From Armatimonadota bacterium (lineage in GTDB: Bacteria > Armatimonadota > Fimbriimonadia > Fimbriimonadales > Fimbriimonadaceae): a DNA stretch of 64,000 nt. Of this stretch, positions 9,402 through 40,449 are shown piece after piece (position 1 is the first letter of the stretch; each line of letters begins with the position of its first letter). The translations under genes were made by a program, and so were the position numbers. The notes beneath the pieces are model-generated. The model had not been told where the DNA came from and ran no database searches. It saw nothing but the letters and a program-made list of their open reading frames with translations. The stretch covers positions 89,178 to 153,177 of the forward strand of contig JAFDWX010000007.1 of the NCBI GenBank assembly GCA_018268255.1, read 5' to 3'.

Positions 9402-11417
9402 GTGAGTCTCATTAAAATGTGCTGTTATCGGTACGGAACGACACCGTTGAACCCGATTATTTTATTCAGCGTGAGCGAATCGCAGTCACTGCAAGCCTTG
9501 GCGGCTATTTTAGCCGAACTTGGGGTCCCTGCTTGTCTGGGCGACCTTGAGTCGTGTGGACCCGGATATCCGGTGGTCCTCACCACGAACACAGGTGACC
9601 ACATCACGCTTCCCCTGCCCGAGCCGCCGATCCTCGCCGCGCTGGATTCGGAACACATTGGATTGACGCTCGTTGACTCCGCAGGATTCATCCAGAGTGT
9701 GTGGGGATTAGCGAAAAATGCCGGATTCTGGACCGATGGCGGCAACATCTTCGATACCGATCTCGCTCTGTTGGTCGAGAGCGGATTTCGAGGAACACCT
9801 GGCTCAGTCTTCTTGGACGGCTATCGGTATTACGTGTCCAGTTTTGATCCATCCAATGGCGGATTTCTTGCGATCCTCGTCATCGATGCACACGAGGAAC
9901 TCGAAGCACGAGAGGACGCTACGCGGTTTAGCCGATCAGCCTCCATGCTTCGGAGAATCGGAACTGCTCTTACGATGCACCAGAACCTTCAACCTTTGTG
10001 CATCGCAGCAGTGCACGAAATTGCCTCCTCAGCCGAGTTGGCAGCGGTCCTGCTTTGGATTTCTGAACCGGAAACTCCCAAGCTGAATCTGGTTGCATCG
10101 GTTGGCGCGAGCCGTCAAGGAACGACGGTTGTTGAAGAACTCCGGATCGACGGTACGCCGAGTTGCATCGCTGAACTCGTCGGAAGCACCCGACGCGAGT
10201 TCCATACCTCGGCCGCAAGCGACCATATGATGACGGCCAACCTGGAAGCGAAATATTGTTACCTTAAGCCCGGCGGCGTCATGGTACTTCCACTTCTTAT
10301 CGGAGATCGACTTCTCGGCGTGCTCGAGTTGATCGCTCGGGAAAACGATGACCGCCTGGTTGAAGATCGAGAGCTTTTTGCGGCGGTCGGAGAGCATCTT
10401 GCCCTAGCACTCAATTCCGCGATGATGTTCGAGAGTTTTGAGAAACTCGCGACACGCGACTCGCTTACCGGGATTGCCAATCACCGGGCCATGCAAGACT
10501 TTCTGCATCGCCGGGTTGCTGAATCTGCCCGAACGAATAGCCAGCTTGGCGTTATCATGCTGGACATTGATCACTTCCGAGCGTTTAACGAGGAAGAAGG
10601 CCACGACGTCGGTGATCTCGCCATTAAAAAAGTAGCAGAAGCTATCTTGGCGTGCGTGCGCCCGTACGATCTGGCTGGACGTTACGGCGGAGAGGAATTT
10701 GCGATCATTCTTCCTGGATCGGGGCTTGAGACCACCATGATCGTGGCTGAGCGAATCCGAAAGCGCATCGAGCAGATCGCGATCATCGGAAGTTCCGGAA
10801 TCATCCGGCAGATTACGGCAAGTTTGGGCTGCGCTGAATTCCCGGAAACCGCGCGAGACGCCAACTCACTGCTCAAGGCTGCGGACCAAGCCATGTACCG
10901 TGCAAAGCGAGATGGTAGGAACAAATCGATGGCTTTCGAAGGCGAATTCAAGGCTGTGGAGATGCCTGTGGCGCTTGATTTGGATCTCTTGGATCGGTGG
11001 CTTACTCCCACCGAAAAGCGTGAATCGGATCGGCTGCGCGATCTTTGCGCCCCGTACATCTCCCATCTTGCTCAGAACATTCCGCTGAGCAGCAGCCAAG
11101 AACTTATCTTGACTGGGCTTATCAAAGTCATTGGGCCGTACCGAAAAATCAAAGAAGACCATGACGCAGCTCGGGCGAAGACTTTGGAAGCGGCGAGCGA
11201 ATTCCGCATTCTCATGCCAGCTCTCTCCACGTTCAAAGAGCGCTTTGACGGCTTAGGACCCCTCGAACTAGAGGGAACACGAATTCCCTTGCTCACTCGC
11301 GTCCTCCATGTCGTTTTGGCTCAGGCTGAGCAGAATGGCGAGTCCTTCGCTCGCGACCCCGGAGCCTTTGATCCCACCTTGGTAGATCTGCTCATGGACG
11401 CTCGCGATGCTGCCTAA
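9402..11417 (+). CDS. GAF-GGDEF diguanylate cyclase with degenerate HD-GYP tail
   Basis: Makes cyclic di-GMP from two GTP. Of the 671 residues, about 30-160 look like a PAS-type sensory region, about 175-335 form a GAF domain, and 345-510 form a GGDEF domain. The active-site loop GGEEF is at 429-433 and is preceded by the RxxD inhibitory site (RPYD), so catalysis and product feedback both look intact. The last 150 residues retain HD-GYP landmarks (ERFDGLG...LEGTRIPLLTRVLHVV and AFDPTLVDLL), but the HD pair is replaced by K-V and the HH and GYP motifs are lost, so this part should not hydrolyse c-di-GMP. The true start is unsure: GTG 9402, ATG 9417 or GTG 9471. A start at 9402 would leave no promoter space, so a later one is plausible. 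Confidence 0.92.
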   Translation: MSLIKMCCYRYGTTPLNPIILFSVSESQSLQALAAILAELGVPACLGDLESCGPGYPVVLTTNTGDHITLPLPEPPILAALDSEHIGLTLVDSAGFIQSVWGLAKNAGFWTDGGNIFDTDLALLVESGFRGTPGSVFLDGYRYYVSSFDPSNGGFLAILVIDAHEELEAREDATRFSRSASMLRRIGTALTMHQNLQPLCIAAVHEIASSAELAAVLLWISEPETPKLNLVASVGASRQGTTVVEELRIDGTPSCIAELVGSTRREFHTSAASDHMMTANLEAKYCYLKPGGVMVLPLLIGDRLLGVLELIARENDDRLVEDRELFAAVGEHLALALNSAMMFESFEKLATRDSLTGIANHRAMQDFLHRRVAESARTNSQLGVIMLDIDHFRAFNEEEGHDVGDLAIKKVAEAILACVRPYDLAGRYGGEEFAIILPGSGLETTMIVAERIRKRIEQIAIIGSSGIIRQITASLGCAEFPETARDANSLLKAADQAMYRAKRDGRNKSMAFEGEFKAVEMPVALDLDLLDRWLTPTEKRESDRLRDLCAPYISHLAQNIPLSSSQELILTGLIKVIGPYRKIKEDHDAARAKTLEAASEFRILMPALSTFKERFDGLGPLELEGTRIPLLTRVLHVVLAQAEQNGESFARDPGAFDPTLVDLLMDARDAA

Positions 11418-11495
11418 CCTCACCTAAAACTACCGGAGTTTCGCGCTGTGGAGTGAATTGGCATTCCCATTGCATACCGTTGTGTTCGGATTCTC

Positions 11496-11509
11496 GTGGC
11501 CGAGGCCAC
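11496..11509. repeat. perfect inverted repeat just upstream of the choice-of-anchor gene
   Basis: GTGGCC-GA-GGCCAC, a six-base-pair perfect inverted repeat nine bases before the ATG at 11518. No Shine-Dalgarno sequence is visible in this leader. It may be an operator or a small hairpin at the ribosome entry site; no function can be assigned. Confidence 0.4.
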
Positions 11510-11517
11510 CTACGATC

Positions 11518-12177
11518 ATGAACACTATTAGAACCATTGCTCTCATTTCGTGTGTCGGACTCAGTGCTTTCGTCCTTGCGGACACCAAAACGTATTCGGC
11601 CAAGATTGACCCGAAAGCCACCAACTGGTCCGGCACCATCAACCTTCCCCAATTTGATCCGTCTCTCGGCGAACTTCGCAGCGCAGTCTTGTGCTTTAGC
11701 GGAAACGTCTCCGGCACTGCTCAGGTCGAAAACAAGCAGTGCCAACCCGTGTGTGTTACGACGAAGCTCTCTGCCAAAGTCACTGCCAAGGACATCACGG
11801 GTGCGACTGTGTTCAGCCTGGTGCCCAGTGTCACCAAAAGCGACAAACTCTACGGATACGACGGAAAGACCGACTACAAGGGCACATCAGGCAAGACCTA
11901 CTCGAACCTAAGTGCCTCGACCAGCGGGCAAAAGTCCATTGCTTCCAAGGAGCTTGGAAACTACGTGGGCAAAGGCAACGTGGTCTTCAACATCAACGCG
12001 GTAAATCAATCTGCCGCGAGTGGCTCGTGCAATTTGGCATCCAACTTCCAGTCGCTCGCCGGTGCCAATATTTGCGTCACCTATTGCTACAATCCGGTGC
12101 CGGAACCGACCAGCATGGCTGGGTTGGCATTTGGCGCAATTGGGCTCATGCGACGCCGAAAGCGAGCACGAGGCTAG
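11518..12177 (+). CDS. secreted choice-of-anchor E-like protein with PEP-CTERM-type anchor
   Basis: Surface or matrix protein of 219 residues. N-terminal signal peptide (MNTIRTIALISCVGLSAFVLA). A beta-rich body starts WSGTINLPQFDPSLG and contains SGNVSGTAQVEN, matching the choice-of-anchor E pattern as I know it. The C-terminus is a sorting-type tail: VPEP at the start, a short hydrophobic segment (MAGLAFGAIGLM) and a basic end (RRRKRARG). Cysteines occur in pairs, suggesting disulfides. The frame is open to 11458, but the ATG at 11518 directly begins the signal peptide. Function unknown. It converges with another VPEP protein across a shared terminator. Confidence 0.82.
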   Translation: MNTIRTIALISCVGLSAFVLADTKTYSAKIDPKATNWSGTINLPQFDPSLGELRSAVLCFSGNVSGTAQVENKQCQPVCVTTKLSAKVTAKDITGATVFSLVPSVTKSDKLYGYDGKTDYKGTSGKTYSNLSASTSGQKSIASKELGNYVGKGNVVFNINAVNQSAASGSCNLASNFQSLAGANICVTYCYNPVPEPTSMAGLAFGAIGLMRRRKRARG

Positions 12178-12200
12178 AGCGTCGCGAGGTCTTCCAAAAC

Positions 12201-12237
12201 AAATCGACCCCCAACCACATCGGTCGGGGGTCGATTT
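12201..12237. terminator. bidirectional terminator hairpin between convergent VPEP genes
   Basis: Twelve-base-pair perfect stem (AAATCGACCCCC / GGGGGTCGATTT) around a 13-base loop. It is A-rich on one flank and T-rich on the other, so it can work for the rightward gene ending at 12177 and the leftward gene ending at 12244. Confidence 0.85.
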
Positions 12238-12243
12238 CTAGCT

Positions 12244-12987
12244 TCAGCGAGAGCGCTTTCTGAGAACTGCGGCCAATCCGAGTCCTAGCACACCCAGCGA
12301 GAGCGGCTCTGGCACCGCTGAAATCACCAGGTTGTCGATTCCTACCGCATCCGCATTCGCGCCTGATCCAACGCCATCTTTTGGATACACGATGGAAACT
12401 TCGGTGAAAGCCACGCTCGATGTCACGCCCAAGAACATTGCCGACCCCGTGCGAATCTGGGTGGTATCGAGGTCGCCCGCAAGAGCATAGGATTCGCCAT
12501 TGTTCAACACCATTTGGTGACCTGGATGAACGCCGGAATATCCAAACCAATCGCTTTCGTCGCTGATGCTCATTCCAAAAGCTTTGATCGGCGAGGCAAA
12601 CGTAATGGTGAGCGCGGTCATTCCAGAATCCATCAGAGCCATGAAGTACTTGGTTCCGGAAAAGGCAAAGGCCTCATATTCGACCGTATCGCGCACTTGT
12701 GCCTCCGTGATTCCGGCTCCTGATGCAGATGCAAACGTTGCAGTAGCTCCACCATCAAAGGTGCCCACACCATTCAGCGCGCCAACGGATGCACTCTCAA
12801 AGTCGTAAGTCTGCAATCCACCGACTGCGGCTGAGAACGATGCCTTCGCACCGTCGTGGTACGGCCGATCCAAAAGCGGAACCGAACCCGACATGTTTTG
12901 ATCAAATCCGAAGTAGACAGCCGATACAGCAGGGATCGACAAGGCAAGCGAAAAAGCAGCGACTAAGGTCGCACGTGATCTGTTCAT
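12244..12987 (-). CDS. secreted protein with PEP-CTERM-type anchor
   Basis: Protein of 247 residues with a signal peptide (MNRSRATLVAAFSLALSIPAVSA), a beta-rich body and a C-terminal VPEP segment followed by LSLGVLGLGLAAVLRKRSR. The body includes a TYDFESASVGAL segment and an FASPIKAFGMSISDES motif, resembling domains common in extracellular PEP-CTERM proteins. The longer frame to 13077 is unlikely because the ATG at 12987 has a perfect AGGAGGA ribosome-binding site at good spacing and begins the signal peptide. Function unknown; no exosortase gene is in the window. Confidence 0.83.
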   Translation of the reverse strand: MNRSRATLVAAFSLALSIPAVSAVYFGFDQNMSGSVPLLDRPYHDGAKASFSAAVGGLQTYDFESASVGALNGVGTFDGGATATFASASGAGITEAQVRDTVEYEAFAFSGTKYFMALMDSGMTALTITFASPIKAFGMSISDESDWFGYSGVHPGHQMVLNNGESYALAGDLDTTQIRTGSAMFLGVTSSVAFTEVSIVYPKDGVGSGANADAVGIDNLVISAVPEPLSLGVLGLGLAAVLRKRSR

Positions 12988-36356: not shown

Positions 36357-36450
36357 AAAAAGGCAATCTTTGGGGCGACCCTCTGAGCGCAAAGCCTAGG
36401 ATCTCATCAGGGAAAATCAACCGAAGTGAGACAGCCGGGATGCCTGTCTG
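36357..36450 (+). ncRNA. GEMM-I cyclic di-GMP riboswitch
   Basis: The leader of flgM shows the main GEMM-I features. P1: AGGCA-a-TC (36361) pairs with GATGCCT (36439-36445), with a possible CAGA/TCTG extension. First hairpin: GGG-GCGA-CCC, with a GNRA tetraloop that in this class docks into the second helix. Conserved joint GCGCAAAGCC (36388-36397). Second helix: TCTCAT / GTGAGA (36402-36407 and 36426-36431). Closing block ACAGCCGGGATGCC (36431-36444) near the family's AGCCGGGTTGCC. GEMM-I senses cyclic di-GMP, and a variant senses cGAMP; which one applies cannot be settled by eye. No terminator follows; the GCCT of P1 could pair with AGGC in the ribosome-binding site AGGAGGC, suggesting translational control. 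Confidence 0.8.
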
Positions 36451-36492
36451 CGAAACGAAGAGTGGCTGCTGCTACACAAACTAGGAGGCCCT

Positions 36493-36759
36493 ATGCGAAT
36501 CTCAGACGAACAAGTACAAAAAATACTCCAACAGGGAGGAGTTTCCCTATTTGAAAACGAGAACGGTTTTGTCGCGTCCCCCCGCGATGATGACCAAGAA
36601 ATGATTAAGAAATTGACTCAAGAAGTTCTGGACATGCCTGACCGGGAGGCGATGATCGCTGACCTGAAGGCCAAGATCGAGGCCGGAGAGTACAAACCGT
36701 CATCGGACGATATTGCCGATGCCATGGTACGCCGCGCGATCGCAGATCGAATTCGCTGA
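36493..36759 (+). CDS. flgM: FlgM-like anti-sigma-28 factor
   Basis: 88 residues. The C-terminal half (MPDREAMIADLKAKIEAGEYKPSSDDIADAMVRRAI) matches the sigma-28-binding part of FlgM, which holds back FliA until the flagellar hook is complete. The N-terminus (MRISDEQVQKILQ) is short and specific to this lineage. Strong AGGAGG ribosome-binding site 7 bases before the ATG. A predicted GEMM-I riboswitch occupies the leader, which would tie flagellar gene timing to cyclic di-GMP. A terminator follows at once, so it is monocistronic. No fliA or flagellar genes are in the window. Confidence 0.85.
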   Translation: MRISDEQVQKILQQGGVSLFENENGFVASPRDDDQEMIKKLTQEVLDMPDREAMIADLKAKIEAGEYKPSSDDIADAMVRRAIADRIR

Positions 36760-36783
36760 GTTCCTCTGACGGTATCTCAGCCG

Positions 36784-36816
36784 GGCCCTCGTCCCTTTTT
36801 TGGACGAGGGCCTTTT
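36784..36816 (+). terminator. rho-independent terminator after flgM
   Basis: GGCCCTCGTCC / GGACGAGGGCC, eleven perfect base pairs, followed by TTTT and a T-rich stretch. Confidence 0.9.
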
Positions 36817-36939
36817 CTTGTGCGAGACCTTTTTTTGCACTAACTGAAAATTGTCCTTGTCCAGAATGACTTTTGTTGTTATACTGAACTTGTTTTCTCT
36901 CGCAAGTTTGCGAGGATTTTCTTGGTCTGGAGCTTAATA

Positions 36940-38244
36940 ATGAAACCAAAGTCGTCTCAAGCCGACTCGTCGTCTTCTCGTATCCGCACTGCGATCACCC
37001 GCACCGTTTGCTTGATGGGTGGACTCACCCTGGCATTCATGGCACTCAGTTCAAAGGATTCCTTCGATCATGAAGTGGTGGCAAGTGCCGCTGTCAAACA
37101 AGCGCAAAGCAATCTCGTGGTTGTCGGTTTCAACGAACTTGGAATGCATTGTATGAACGAGGATTTTTCCGAACTCTGCATTCTTCCTCCCTTCAACACC
37201 TTCCGCGCTCAGTTGATCCGCCGGGGCGACAATCCCGATGTTGTCCGAACCGGTGCTGTAGTCAACTTCAGCATTCTGGGCAACACAGTCAGCCACACGA
37301 AAACCAATTTCTGGGATTACGAGGATAAATTGTTCGGTGTCAATCTGGCTCCCGATACAGGACTTACCGGCACTGGACTTTCGGGGCGCATGTTCTACCA
37401 AACGGCTGGATGGTACGAGGCGACAGGTATCCCAGTAACACCGGTTATGGATGATGGGACTCCCAACGCCTACAACGTGGGCCAGATTACGGCAACCTAT
37501 GATGGGCTCACCGGATCCACTCAGGCTGTTATTCCGGTGTCATGGGAAATCAGCTGTAACCTCTGTCACGGAATCAAAAAAGCGTCTCCGGTCAATGGGA
37601 CTCGAGGCCCTAAGGACGGTGCACCTCCGAAAGCGGGTGGAGCGGAATCGGTGGGTGTGGCGACTGACATTCTTGCGGACCATGACCGGCTTCACGGAAC
37701 CCACCTTATGAACCAAAGGCCAGTGTTGTGCGCTAGCTGCCACGCGGACCCGGCACTCGGCACAACGGGTGTGGCAGGGGTGAAGACAATGTCTGCTGCC
37801 ATGCACGGTGCACACGCTTCGAGGATGGGTCAGGCAAATCTGACTAATGCATGCTACGCCTGCCACCCTGGTGTCAAGACCAATTGTCAACGAGACGTCC
37901 ACTACACGCAGGGGATCTACTGCACGAACTGCCACGGTTCCATGACGGCGATGGGAAGTACCACGCGTACTCCTTGGAAGGATGAACCCAAGTGTTCCAA
38001 CTGTCACAACGTATCTGGCCACCAGTATGAGGAAACCGGCAAGCTGTTCAAAGACTCAAAAGGTCATGGCGGAGTGTTCTGTGTCACCTGTCACAACGCA
38101 CCCCATGCCATCACACCGGCTGCCACAGCCTTGGACAATGCTCAGACTTTGAGGCTTCAGGACCACATCGGAACGTTGGACAAATGCTTGATCTGCCATA
38201 CACGGCAGCCCAATGAGTCGTTCCCGCACCGACGAGACGACTAA
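36940..38244 (+). CDS. secreted/membrane-anchored heptaheme c-type cytochrome
   Basis: 434 residues. A hydrophobic N-terminal segment (residues 22-35) serves as signal or anchor. An N-terminal domain (NLVVVGFNELGMHCMNEDF...FNTFRAQLIRRG) has no heme site and looks beta-rich. Then come seven CXXCH heme motifs at residues 206 (CNLCH), 264 (CASCH), 305 (CYACH), 328 (CTNCH), 352 (CSNCH), 381 (CVTCH) and 416 (CLICH). Several extra His residues could be distal ligands. It probably moves electrons across the periplasm. Redox partner unknown; no cytochrome maturation genes are nearby. The ATG at 36940 is preferred over the TTG at 36922. Its terminator lies inside the end of kdtA. Confidence 0.9.
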   Translation: MKPKSSQADSSSSRIRTAITRTVCLMGGLTLAFMALSSKDSFDHEVVASAAVKQAQSNLVVVGFNELGMHCMNEDFSELCILPPFNTFRAQLIRRGDNPDVVRTGAVVNFSILGNTVSHTKTNFWDYEDKLFGVNLAPDTGLTGTGLSGRMFYQTAGWYEATGIPVTPVMDDGTPNAYNVGQITATYDGLTGSTQAVIPVSWEISCNLCHGIKKASPVNGTRGPKDGAPPKAGGAESVGVATDILADHDRLHGTHLMNQRPVLCASCHADPALGTTGVAGVKTMSAAMHGAHASRMGQANLTNACYACHPGVKTNCQRDVHYTQGIYCTNCHGSMTAMGSTTRTPWKDEPKCSNCHNVSGHQYEETGKLFKDSKGHGGVFCVTCHNAPHAITPAATALDNAQTLRLQDHIGTLDKCLICHTRQPNESFPHRRDD

Positions 38245-38268
38245 GCGCCACGCGCGCTGTTCGAGAGA

Positions 38269-38297
38269 GGCTCAGGCTATTTGCCTGAGCCTTTTTT
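38269..38297 (+). terminator. rho-independent terminator of the cytochrome gene
   Basis: GGCTCAGGC / GCCTGAGCC, nine perfect pairs, followed by TTTTTT. The hairpin overlaps the final codons and stop of the convergent kdtA gene. Confidence 0.88.
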
Positions 38298-39566
38298 GCG
38301 TACTGGGAAGGGCACCTGCGCGGCTCTGCAAATCTCGTCTGCGTACACTTTGCTGGCACCCATGCTGGCCCTGACCATCTCCTTGCCCGCTTCGGCCATC
38401 TTGTTCCGCGTGGCTGGGTCCTTGAGCAGCAGTTGAAGGGTGTGCCGCAACTCATCCACGGTCGCGCAGATCCGCGAGGCTCCAACTCGAGTGGCTTGTT
38501 CGCCAGCATCCCGAAAATTCTGCATATGCGGGCCATGAATGACAGGCACGCCCACGGCTAACGGCTGAATCAGATTTTGCCCCCCATAGTTGCCGAAACC
38601 GCCTCCAATGATTGCCAGATCCGCAACCTGATATACCTCTGAAAGTTCTCCGAAGGTATCCAAAACCATCCACGGGCCCGTTTCGGCTTTGGAACGCAAA
38701 GCCGGCTCGGGGAGCCCGTGCTTCCGGCCGATTTCGATGACCTCTGGAGCTCGTTCCAAATGGCGTGGCGCGTAGACGACGCGAACACCCCCTTGGACAA
38801 AGGAAGCAAGTGCCGCCAGCACCAGTTCATCCTCGTCGATGCCGCGTGTGCTCCCAACCACCACAACTTTCTCGCTCTCCTGAATACCAAGTTCTGTGCG
38901 CCATTCTTCAGCAGATTTCTTCGGAGCGACCACCCCTTGGTCGTATTTGCAGTTTCCCGTTACCTCTGAGTTCACAGCACCAAGCGCTCGGATTCTGCGG
39001 GCGTCTTCCTCCGTCTGCATCATCGCTCGATCCAGCATGGCCAGCATGGATCGGTAGAAAAATCGGAGTTTCATGGACCGAGGGAACGATCGGTCGCTGA
39101 TCCGCCCATTGATCAGCATGGTAGTCGCCTCCAAGGATTTGCTGGCCCACAAAAAGTTGAACCACAACTCGGTCTCCATGATCGCGACCACGCGAGGTCG
39201 AACGCTTGCGACAGCGGTGAGTTGGAACAAGGCGAGGTCGATGGGGAAGTAGACGAGTCGGTCCACCCACTCACTTGCCTTTTCGCGAGCAGTGGCGTGT
39301 CCGCTGCTGGTCGTCACACTCAGAACGATTTCCGGTGGATCGTGCCGGCTTTTGATCGCCTCCAAAATCGGCAGCGCTGCCATCACCTCGCCGACTGAAA
39401 CGGCATGAATCCACACGCGAGGTGTTTTGGGTGAGAGTTGGAAGAAATAGTGCCCACGACGCTCCTTCCAATTGGGAGCTTCCTTGCGAGCCCGGCTCCG
39501 GATCCACATCCAGGGGAGCCAAATCGGCGCCGCAAAGAATAGAAGCGTGTTATAGAGGATGTACAT
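38277..39566 (-). CDS. waaA: 3-deoxy-D-manno-octulosonic acid (Kdo) transferase
   Basis: Transfers Kdo from CMP-Kdo onto lipid A precursors at the inner face of the inner membrane, evidence for a lipopolysaccharide outer membrane. 429 residues. A membrane anchor at the N-terminus (MYILYNTLLFFAAPIWLPW), then the family blocks VWIHAVSVGEVMAALPI (catalytic Glu in VGE), METELWFNFL, TGNCKYD, VVVGSTRG, PRHLERAPEV and GGFGNYGGQNLIQPLAVGVPVIHGPHMQNF. The frame opens at 39698, but the ATG at 39566 begins the anchor. It overlaps the purC end by 17 bases. Confidence 0.95.
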   Translation of the reverse strand: MYILYNTLLFFAAPIWLPWMWIRSRARKEAPNWKERRGHYFFQLSPKTPRVWIHAVSVGEVMAALPILEAIKSRHDPPEIVLSVTTSSGHATAREKASEWVDRLVYFPIDLALFQLTAVASVRPRVVAIMETELWFNFLWASKSLEATTMLINGRISDRSFPRSMKLRFFYRSMLAMLDRAMMQTEEDARRIRALGAVNSEVTGNCKYDQGVVAPKKSAEEWRTELGIQESEKVVVVGSTRGIDEDELVLAALASFVQGGVRVVYAPRHLERAPEVIEIGRKHGLPEPALRSKAETGPWMVLDTFGELSEVYQVADLAIIGGGFGNYGGQNLIQPLAVGVPVIHGPHMQNFRDAGEQATRVGASRICATVDELRHTLQLLLKDPATRNKMAEAGKEMVRASMGASKVYADEICRAAQVPFPVRKKGSGK

Positions 39567-40449
39567 CAAGGGACTTGCCCACAATCCTCCGGTAGGCGTC
39601 CAGGTATTTCTCCCGGGTCTTGGCGATGATGTCCTCCGGAAGAGTGGGTCCTGGCGGCTGCTTATTCCATTGGATCGATTCCAAATAGTCACGGACAAAC
39701 TGCTTATCGAAGCTTGGCTGTGCTTGGCCGGGATTCCATCCGGTCGATTCCCAGTACCGACTGGAATCGGGTGTCAGAGCTTCATCGATCCAGAGGAGTC
39801 CGTCGTCCGTTAGCCCGAACTCGAACTTAGTGTCCGCCAGGATGAGTCCACACTGGGCGGCGTGCGCTGCCGCCTCTTTGTAGAGCTTAAGTGTCCAATC
39901 TCGTGCGAGCTCGGCGATTTCACGGCCCACGAGATCGACGGCAGTATCCCAGCTGATGTTCTGGTCGTGACCTTCTTCTGCTTTCGTTGCTGGAGTAAAT
40001 ATGGGTTCGTCCAGCTTGGATCCTTCGACGAACCCTGCAGGCAAGGAGATGCCCGACACAGAACCTGTGGCTGCATACTCTTTGGTCCCTCCTCCGGATA
40101 AATAGCCTCTAGCGACACACTCGATTGGCAACGGCTTCGCTTTCTTCGCGAGGATGCTCCTGCCAGAAAGAGTTTCCCAGCCGGATGGAACTCTATCTTT
40201 CAGAGCCTCATCGGAACTTGCGATCACGTGGTGAGGAGCGATGTGTCGGAGCTTCTCAAACCAAAACAGGCTCATCTGGTTGAGGATGCGGCCCTTATCC
40301 GGCACGCCGTTCGCCATCACGACATCGAATGCCGAGATTCGATCCGAAGCGACGATGAGCAAAACGTCCCCCAAGTCAAAGACTTCGCGAACCTTGCCGA
40401 TCCGCCCCGCGGGGAGCCCAGCAATTCCGCCACAGTTCATTAGAACCAT
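39550..40449 (-). CDS. purC: phosphoribosylaminoimidazole-succinocarboxamide (SAICAR) synthase
   Basis: Purine biosynthesis: joins aspartate to CAIR using ATP. 299 residues. GKVREVFDLGDVLLIVASDRISAFDVV near the start, then PIECVARGYLSGGG, ELARDWTLKLYKEAAAHAAQCGLILADTKFEFG and DEALTPDSSRYW, all typical. The long form (about 300 residues, Saccharomyces-like) is the type seen in many bacteria. The ATG at 40449 is used; another in-frame ATG is 9 bases downstream and the frame remains open to 40593. No other pur gene is adjacent. Confidence 0.95.
   Translation of the reverse strand: MVLMNCGGIAGLPAGRIGKVREVFDLGDVLLIVASDRISAFDVVMANGVPDKGRILNQMSLFWFEKLRHIAPHHVIASSDEALKDRVPSGWETLSGRSILAKKAKPLPIECVARGYLSGGGTKEYAATGSVSGISLPAGFVEGSKLDEPIFTPATKAEEGHDQNISWDTAVDLVGREIAELARDWTLKLYKEAAAHAAQCGLILADTKFEFGLTDDGLLWIDEALTPDSSRYWESTGWNPGQAQPSFDKQFVRDYLESIQWNKQPPGPTLPEDIIAKTREKYLDAYRRIVGKSLDVHPL

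Follow-up and report, generated by a model that had tools for sequence, protein, structure and literature searches.

A heptaheme cytochrome family with a heme-free beta domain in Armatimonadota and other bacteria, possibly serving porin-cytochrome conduits at the cell surface

Introduction

The decaheme cytochromes OmcA and MtrC carry their ten hemes in two pentaheme domains, and MtrC has two beta domains. To our knowledge, neither the Armatimonadota nor most Planctomycetota are among the textbook examples of electron-exporting bacteria. In porin-cytochrome complexes the gene of the periplasmic cytochrome always occurs with a porin gene and mostly also with the gene of an outer-membrane cytochrome (PMC4245776), and Armatimonadota have been reported to carry multiheme cytochromes of unknown function (PMC11788075). 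Here we describe a cytochrome gene from a window of 64,000 nucleotides of an Armatimonadota contig (“the window” denotes this whole stretch). The heptaheme family to which it belongs is widespread in bacteria and apparently unstudied; no account of it was found in the open-licence literature searched, and the available portions of PMC11788075, PMC6137239, PMC12307469, and PMC4245776 contain no description of it.

The Heptaheme Gene and Its Locus

The open reading frame starts with an ATG, an in-frame TTG at 36922 being an alternative start, and is flanked by signals of its own:

36857..36885, + strand: promoter-like site TTGTCC-17-TATACT (consensus scan only)
36940..38244, + strand: heptaheme cytochrome gene, 434 aa (translation, homologues)
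37006..37047, + strand: hydrophobic core of the N-terminal export-type signal, residues 23-36 (read by eye from the translation)
38262..38298, + strand: terminator-like hairpin with T run (folding energy)

The promoter-like site agrees with the consensus at 9 of 12 positions and has a TG ahead of its second hexamer; the consensus scan gave two such sites in 36400-38500, compared to 0.7 expected in shuffles. The region 38255-38300 folds with -27.6 kcal/mol (z -6.6), and the absence of its hairpin from the consensus terminator scan is probably due to the stem rule of that scan, which swallows the T run. Upstream, a small same-strand ORF (36493-36759, +), which by eye we take to resemble the anti-sigma factor FlgM, stops before a terminator-like hairpin at 36783-36813, and the downstream neighbor (38277-39698) is read in the opposite direction. 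The heptaheme gene is a single-gene unit with its own promoter-like and terminator-like signals. Neither a porin-like gene nor a gene for a periplasmic cytochrome occurs within 4 kb on either side. The earlier note on this DNA, which saw no hint of a dedicated respiratory cluster, was right for this locus, although the genome does have a porin-cytochrome-like cluster elsewhere (see below).

The seven CXXCH motifs that had been noticed in the C-terminal half of the protein all lie within residues 206-420:

37555..37569, + strand: heme motif 1, CNLCH, residues 206-210 (translation; 79/79 rows)
37729..37743, + strand: heme motif 2, CASCH, residues 264-268 (translation; family alignment)
37852..37866, + strand: heme motif 3, CYACH, residues 305-309 (translation; family alignment)
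37921..37935, + strand: heme motif 4, CTNCH, residues 328-332 (translation; family alignment)
37993..38007, + strand: heme motif 5, CSNCH, residues 352-356 (translation; family alignment)
38080..38094, + strand: heme motif 6, CVTCH, residues 381-385 (translation; family alignment)
38185..38199, + strand: heme motif 7, CLICH, residues 416-420 (translation; family alignment)

No CXXCH precedes residue 206 in the 434-aa translation, which bears out the heme-free front region. Exactly seven CXXCH are present in 77 of the 79 family loci read, and the seven motifs are, therefore, not a matter of chance; the two exceptions are a relative with nine (L087) and one with six plus one CX4CH (L088). The 79-row family alignment (A2) spans all seven heme sites and approximately 150 residues of the N-terminal domain. 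At E<=0.001 Pfam yields multiheme models only, all in the C-terminal part of the protein, and a CXXCK heme motif is absent from it. Residues 1-56 consist of the export-type signal and a variable linker; the translation contains no lipobox (by eye) and the protein carries no sorting tail. From the sequence we strongly infer that the protein is exported and that it binds heme.

A Beta Domain Without a Named Family

37108..37554, + strand: heme-free N-terminal beta domain, residues ~57-205 (alignment, AlphaFold2 model)

The first 190 residues had been described as conserved, which holds from about residue 57 onward, where conservation begins, but not for the poorly conserved residues 1-56. AlphaFold2 applied to the 79-row alignment gave a mean pLDDT of 89.5 and a pTM of 0.87 (with just 8 rows as input, pLDDT was 41.5). 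Ten-residue blocks within model residues 11-150 have pLDDT values of 87-98, and the sole long stretch of low confidence is a variable linker at protein residues 215-233. That residues ~57-205 are a disordered or common signal-like region, the outcome that would have spoken against a genuine domain, is ruled out by this high-confidence model and by the alignment in 79 rows. Of the checks that had been proposed for this part of the protein, structure prediction gave this confidently modeled domain, and the search for homologues gave 166 related stretches.

The model of the N-terminal domain is a beta-sandwich that weakly matches immunoglobulin-like folds. Foldseek against solved structures reached E 3e-3 at best and gave nothing at 1e-3. 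In the VIA structural alignment, the matches of which cover mainly model residues 5-266, the best row has a Z of 4.6 over 87 residues, which falls short of what the tool rates as meaningful. Immunoglobulin-like rows are numerous, those of antibodies and others lying at Z 3.6-4.0. Pfam at E<=10 returned nothing within residues 57-205 of the window protein; when the N-terminal domains of 36 members were searched alone, two gave one weak hit each, different from one another (E 0.0056 and 0.032), and the remaining members had no match at E<=0.1. A sequence relative of the domain was not found in the PDB (best E 0.36). The fold had been called unknown: the domain is indeed without a Pfam family, but as modeled it is a folded beta-sandwich, weakly similar to immunoglobulin folds.

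Invariant Histidines and Candidate Heme Ligands

The family alignment points to the following candidate ligands, all on the + strand:

37138..37152, + strand: LGMHC, residues 67-71; H70 as putative distal ligand of a heme, C71 as putative ligand or disulfide partner (conservation)
37681..37683, + strand: H248, candidate distal heme ligand (invariant in 79 rows)
37804..37815, + strand: H289 and H292, candidate distal ligands (invariant in 79 rows)
37885..37887, + strand: C316, possible disulfide partner of C71 (conservation; putative pairing)
38065..38067, + strand: H376, candidate distal ligand (invariant in 79 rows)
38104..38106, + strand: H389, candidate distal ligand (invariant in 79 rows)
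38227..38229, + strand: H430, candidate distal ligand (invariant in 79 rows)

New here are two observations: the only invariant histidine and the only invariant cysteine of the N-terminal domain stand next to each other in LGMHC, and the invariant histidines outside CXXCH (H70, H248, H289, H292, H376, H389, and H430; 79/79 rows) number seven, for seven hemes. This numerical match suggests that H70 probably caps one heme. M69, H70, and C71 are all kept in 79 of 79 rows. Besides C71, C316 is the only invariant cysteine outside CXXCH, and the two perhaps form a disulfide, which may join the domains.

The numerical argument is not strict. Two further histidines are nearly invariant (H252 in 71 and H321 in 75 of the 79 rows), and since most rows thus have nine, H70 is not strictly needed by count. 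That H252 and H321 are obligatory ligands is doubtful, as both are lost in four divergent rows (L084, L085, L087, and L088), which were themselves recruited via the H70-containing pattern, so that H70 and these two histidines are not compared on equal terms. L087 has nine CXXCH and, consequently, the match of histidines and hemes is not exact for every member.

The invariance of H70 is partly built in, because one of the two patterns used for the family scan contains LGMH, the other being VPVSWE-like. Among the 71 scanned rows of the alignment, 21 were retrieved via the LGMH pattern alone, including all four divergent ones; the VPVSWE-like pattern is matched by 50, of which 15 do not match the LGMH pattern, and all 50 keep GMHC. 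As a motif-free control, which covered Armatimonadota alone among the phyla, the heme domain by itself, with rows starting at heme 1, was searched against 291 genomes. At E<=1e-10 it produced 22 matches in 21 genomes, each (22/22) with GMHC upstream and seven CXXCH in frame. Profile matches of the N-terminal domain occur in 22 of the 291 genomes, and the 21 genomes are the same set minus one (G166), where the contig ends within the N-terminal match. In the Armatimonadota, therefore, the two domains are strictly linked, and all 22 matches retain H70.

Distribution of the Family

The heptaheme cytochrome is present in 8 of 61 genomes at E<=1e-5 (its own genome, counted, and 60 relatives), and both other genomes of the same genus among the 61 are without it. 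A pattern scan of the species collection yielded 210 candidate stretches, of which 166 encode relatives; 80 of these were kept and 79 loci were read for heme counts. According to their record titles, the relatives belong to Armatimonadota, Planctomycetota, Hydrogenedentota, Thermosulfurimonas, “Deltaproteobacteria,” and Bacteroidota. Cultivated carriers include Lacipirellula (L026) and Bythopirellula (L025). A maximum likelihood tree of the 79 rows places the window copy next to a protein from Chthonomonadaceae (L012; support 100/100), inside a group of 62 rows (99/98) that leaves out the seven copies taken from its own family in the 61-genome set; these fall in a group of 12 rows (89/89). This placement and the absence from sister species suggest that the window copy was gained laterally. 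For spread by plasmids, 72,556 plasmid records gave no match.

Two loci deserve separate mention. One Hydrogenedentes assembly (CAIJOU01) contains four heptaheme paralogues (L051, L053, L073, and L076), the N-terminal extensions of which differ. At the locus of the nine-heme relative (L087), the next same-strand gene after the cytochrome (9864-12353, +) encodes a protein that partly matches the multicopper oxidases PhsA and CueO, below cut-offs.

Surface Hallmarks and HAF-Repeat Partners in Relatives

Several relatives carry features of surface proteins. The relative from Bacteroidota (L088) has a C-terminal sorting domain for type IX secretion (E 5e-9, above cut-off), and a loosely set script rule flagged a lipobox-like site in 19 of 77 relatives, of which about a dozen are clear by eye. 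Eight cytochromes were scanned for domains, with gene starts set by script that may be too early; two of them have an additional module ahead of the cytochrome part, an fn3 domain in L060 and an InlB-type repeat in L068, each above its cut-off. PF22113, which represents domains II/IV of MtrC/MtrF, matches 34 of the 79 family rows at E<=1e-3 and exceeds its cut-off in L073, L084, L085, and L087; it does not match the window protein at E<=10. These signs of surface export are those of relatives; in the window copy, a lipobox, a sorting tail, and a PF22113 match are all absent.

Of 74 usable loci, 20 have a HAF-repeat gene immediately after the cytochrome gene, a secreted neighbor that we count among the surface hallmarks. 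All 20 belong to a single Phycisphaerae-centered group (20 of 26 loci labeled Phycisphaerae-like, or 16 of 22 by title alone, vs. 0 of 48 others), although these counts are not all independent since three loci (L016, L022, and L030) are near-copies. One more locus (L045) probably also has a HAF gene, the frame of which passes the script’s limit, and another (L078) has one at a distance of ~1.6 kb on the upstream side and, immediately downstream, a weak one (35 bits). Against NCBIfam, each of the four HAF-repeat genes examined exceeds the TIGR02913 cut-off, and weak dockerin-like ends, all below cut-off, occur on three (L014, L018, and L040) of seven HAF partners scanned. No HAF-repeat gene adjoins the window gene; the genome has HAF-repeat proteins elsewhere. 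A contig titled Leptolyngbya sp. PLA1 (L050) holds a Phycisphaerae-type cytochrome with a HAF partner, and its title is probably wrong or its bin contaminated.

A Porin-Cytochrome-Like Cluster Elsewhere in the Genome

Another contig of the same genome (C2) contains a row of three genes (L135 12335-16461, - strand) for a 9-heme DmsE/GSU2203-like cytochrome (189.5 bits vs. the DmsE cut-off of 192.2), a barrel-like protein, and an 8-heme lipoprotein, with a CcmF-type assembly protein further along. The barrel-like protein (575 aa, ending in F) was called by eye from its sequence, and no Pfam or NCBIfam family was found for it. The same 9-heme/barrel/8-heme order is repeated in three other genomes (G002, G018, and G033). 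Judged by its predicted products, the cluster has the make-up of a porin-cytochrome complex.

The barrel profile was found in 62 of the 291 Armatimonadota genomes. Among the 61 genomes it occurs in 7 of 8 with and in 10 of 53 without the heptaheme cytochrome (Fisher p 3e-4, kinship ignored), and in the phylum in 15 of 22 vs. 47 of 269 (Fisher p 1e-6, kinship ignored). Within the genome's own family (f1), where 33 genomes have the barrel, 15 of 17 heptaheme genomes are among them, and the completeness of the other two is 87 and 88 percent. Outside this family the barrel is present in none of the five heptaheme-positive Armatimonadota genomes at E<=1e-10, and the link between barrel and heptaheme is, therefore, shown for this family only. 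The genes chosen as controls for the co-occurrence, an octaheme (1 of 61) and an HAO-like gene (3 of 61), proved too rare for this purpose.

The check for cytochrome c maturation genes that the earlier note had proposed was positive: the genome encodes assembly proteins, one of them of the CcmF type. The genome further encodes a heme-copper oxidase and what is presumably an ActA-like pentaheme. Contig C6 (L136 3723-6013, - strand) carries an octaheme cytochrome of the tetrathionate reductase family (586.5 bits vs. a cut-off of 375), adjoined by a cytochrome b561; at E<=1e-60 this octaheme occurs in no other of the 61 genomes. Contig C4 (L137 3703-5043, + strand) encodes an eight-heme protein that is weakly related to hydrazine dehydrogenase, scores above the Pfam Multi-haem_cyto cut-off, and occurs in 3 of 61 genomes at E<=1e-30.

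Proposed Function and Alternative Explanations

With moderate confidence, we propose that the window gene encodes a c-type cytochrome with seven hemes that is exported, most likely to the outer surface of the outer membrane or out of the cell, and that is the partner of a separately encoded porin-cytochrome conduit; the gene and the conduit do not share an operon. The protein would be exported by Sec and receive its hemes from the Ccm system. The heptaheme domain would act as a short wire in which electrons hop from heme to heme, all seven of them presumably bis-histidine coordinated. The beta domain may pack on the heme domain and supply H70 as the sixth ligand of one heme, and it could either make the wire accessible to a partner or protect it. 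Outside the cell, the protein would exchange electrons with the porin-cytochrome complex, most likely across the outer membrane by the 9-heme/barrel/8-heme conduit, and with an external acceptor or donor, for which a metal oxide, humics, a secreted partner, or another cell are candidates. Of the electron-transfer enzyme that the earlier note had envisaged, the electron-transfer role and the domain pairing can be retained, but neither a catalytic heme nor a substrate site was identified.

The main rival is a catalytic or periplasmic cytochrome, i.e., an electron shuttle or multiheme reductase that works inside the outer membrane, where it would carry electrons or reduce some small molecule at one of its hemes, and in which the beta domain shapes a substrate site. 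We consider this unlikely, though well worth keeping in mind. The heme part does resemble NrfA-type nitrite reductases, with 6v0a as the best PDB profile match (hemes 1-5, E 5.7e-5), and, at an NCBIfam E of 1.9e-6, decahemes of the DmsE type; the single-gene unit has no surface partner adjoining, and the window copy has no lipobox. However, it is also without the CXXCK heme, some relatives bear surface-export features, and, because there are seven invariant candidate distal histidines, there is no obvious open heme site.

It is much less probable that the protein is an extracellular cytochrome that forms filaments, with the H70 of each subunit ligating a heme in its neighbor. Such cross-subunit ligation is known from the OmcS and OmcE nanowires (PMC12307469) and would fit an invariant histidine near the mature N-terminus, in a domain apart from the hemes, but no chain named OmcS or OmcE is among the 22 PDB sequence matches, and the lipoboxes of some relatives suggest anchoring in a membrane. 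The least probable alternative, a beta domain that binds a metal or small molecule through H70 and C71 with the hemes as sensor or detoxifier, could invoke the invariant M69-H70-C71 and the copper resistance protein CrdA as the top row of the structural aligner, but that is the row with the sub-meaningful Z of 4.6, unrelated folds follow at 3.6-4.6, and a typical copper or zinc site would need more than the one invariant histidine and one invariant cysteine of the domain.

Returning to the outer-surface partner of a conduit, a wider reading can be put forward tentatively, as an idea that we would not yet call probable. The family as a whole could consist of outer-surface heptahemes in which the Ig-like domain gives the sixth ligand (H70), in cis or across subunits, and thereby gates or assembles the site of electron exit. 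Spreading laterally among Armatimonadota and Planctomycetota, such proteins may plug into existing porin-cytochrome conduits and provide extracellular electron transfer in little-studied soil and water bacteria. The heptaheme family, the surface hallmarks of relatives, and the tie to the cluster in one genome family make extracellular electron transfer directly testable in Armatimonadota and Planctomycetota. If H70 is indeed a heme ligand, the protein would be an example of a separate beta domain that completes a heme site.

Comparison with Known Multiheme Cytochromes

With the OmcS and OmcE nanowires, the window protein would share, by analogy only, a distal histidine contributed to a multiheme protein by a separate part; the number of hemes differs. 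The likeness to NrfA is a weak profile match, and the window protein differs from it by the missing CXXCK and the N-terminal beta domain, and also by an extra heme motif, CYACHPG, which aligns with IRHPEF of 6v0a. Likewise, the profile match to DmsE/MtrA/GSU2203-type decahemes and NrfB is weak and extends over hemes 2-7; with respect to DmsE (TIGR03508) the window protein scores 27.5 bits against a cut-off of 192.2, has seven hemes, and possesses an additional N-terminal domain. Compared to the OmcA/MtrC family, the window copy is without a PF22113 match, a lipoprotein signal, and an mtr-type cluster, and MtrC and OmcA appear among the Foldseek rows at E 0.01-0.08 and TM 0.15-0.18, too weak for a fold match. 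Unlike MtrC, the window protein holds seven hemes in one stretch and has one beta domain. What it shares with MtrC, MtrF, and OmcA is the order of the parts: in both, a beta domain is followed by a multiheme domain.
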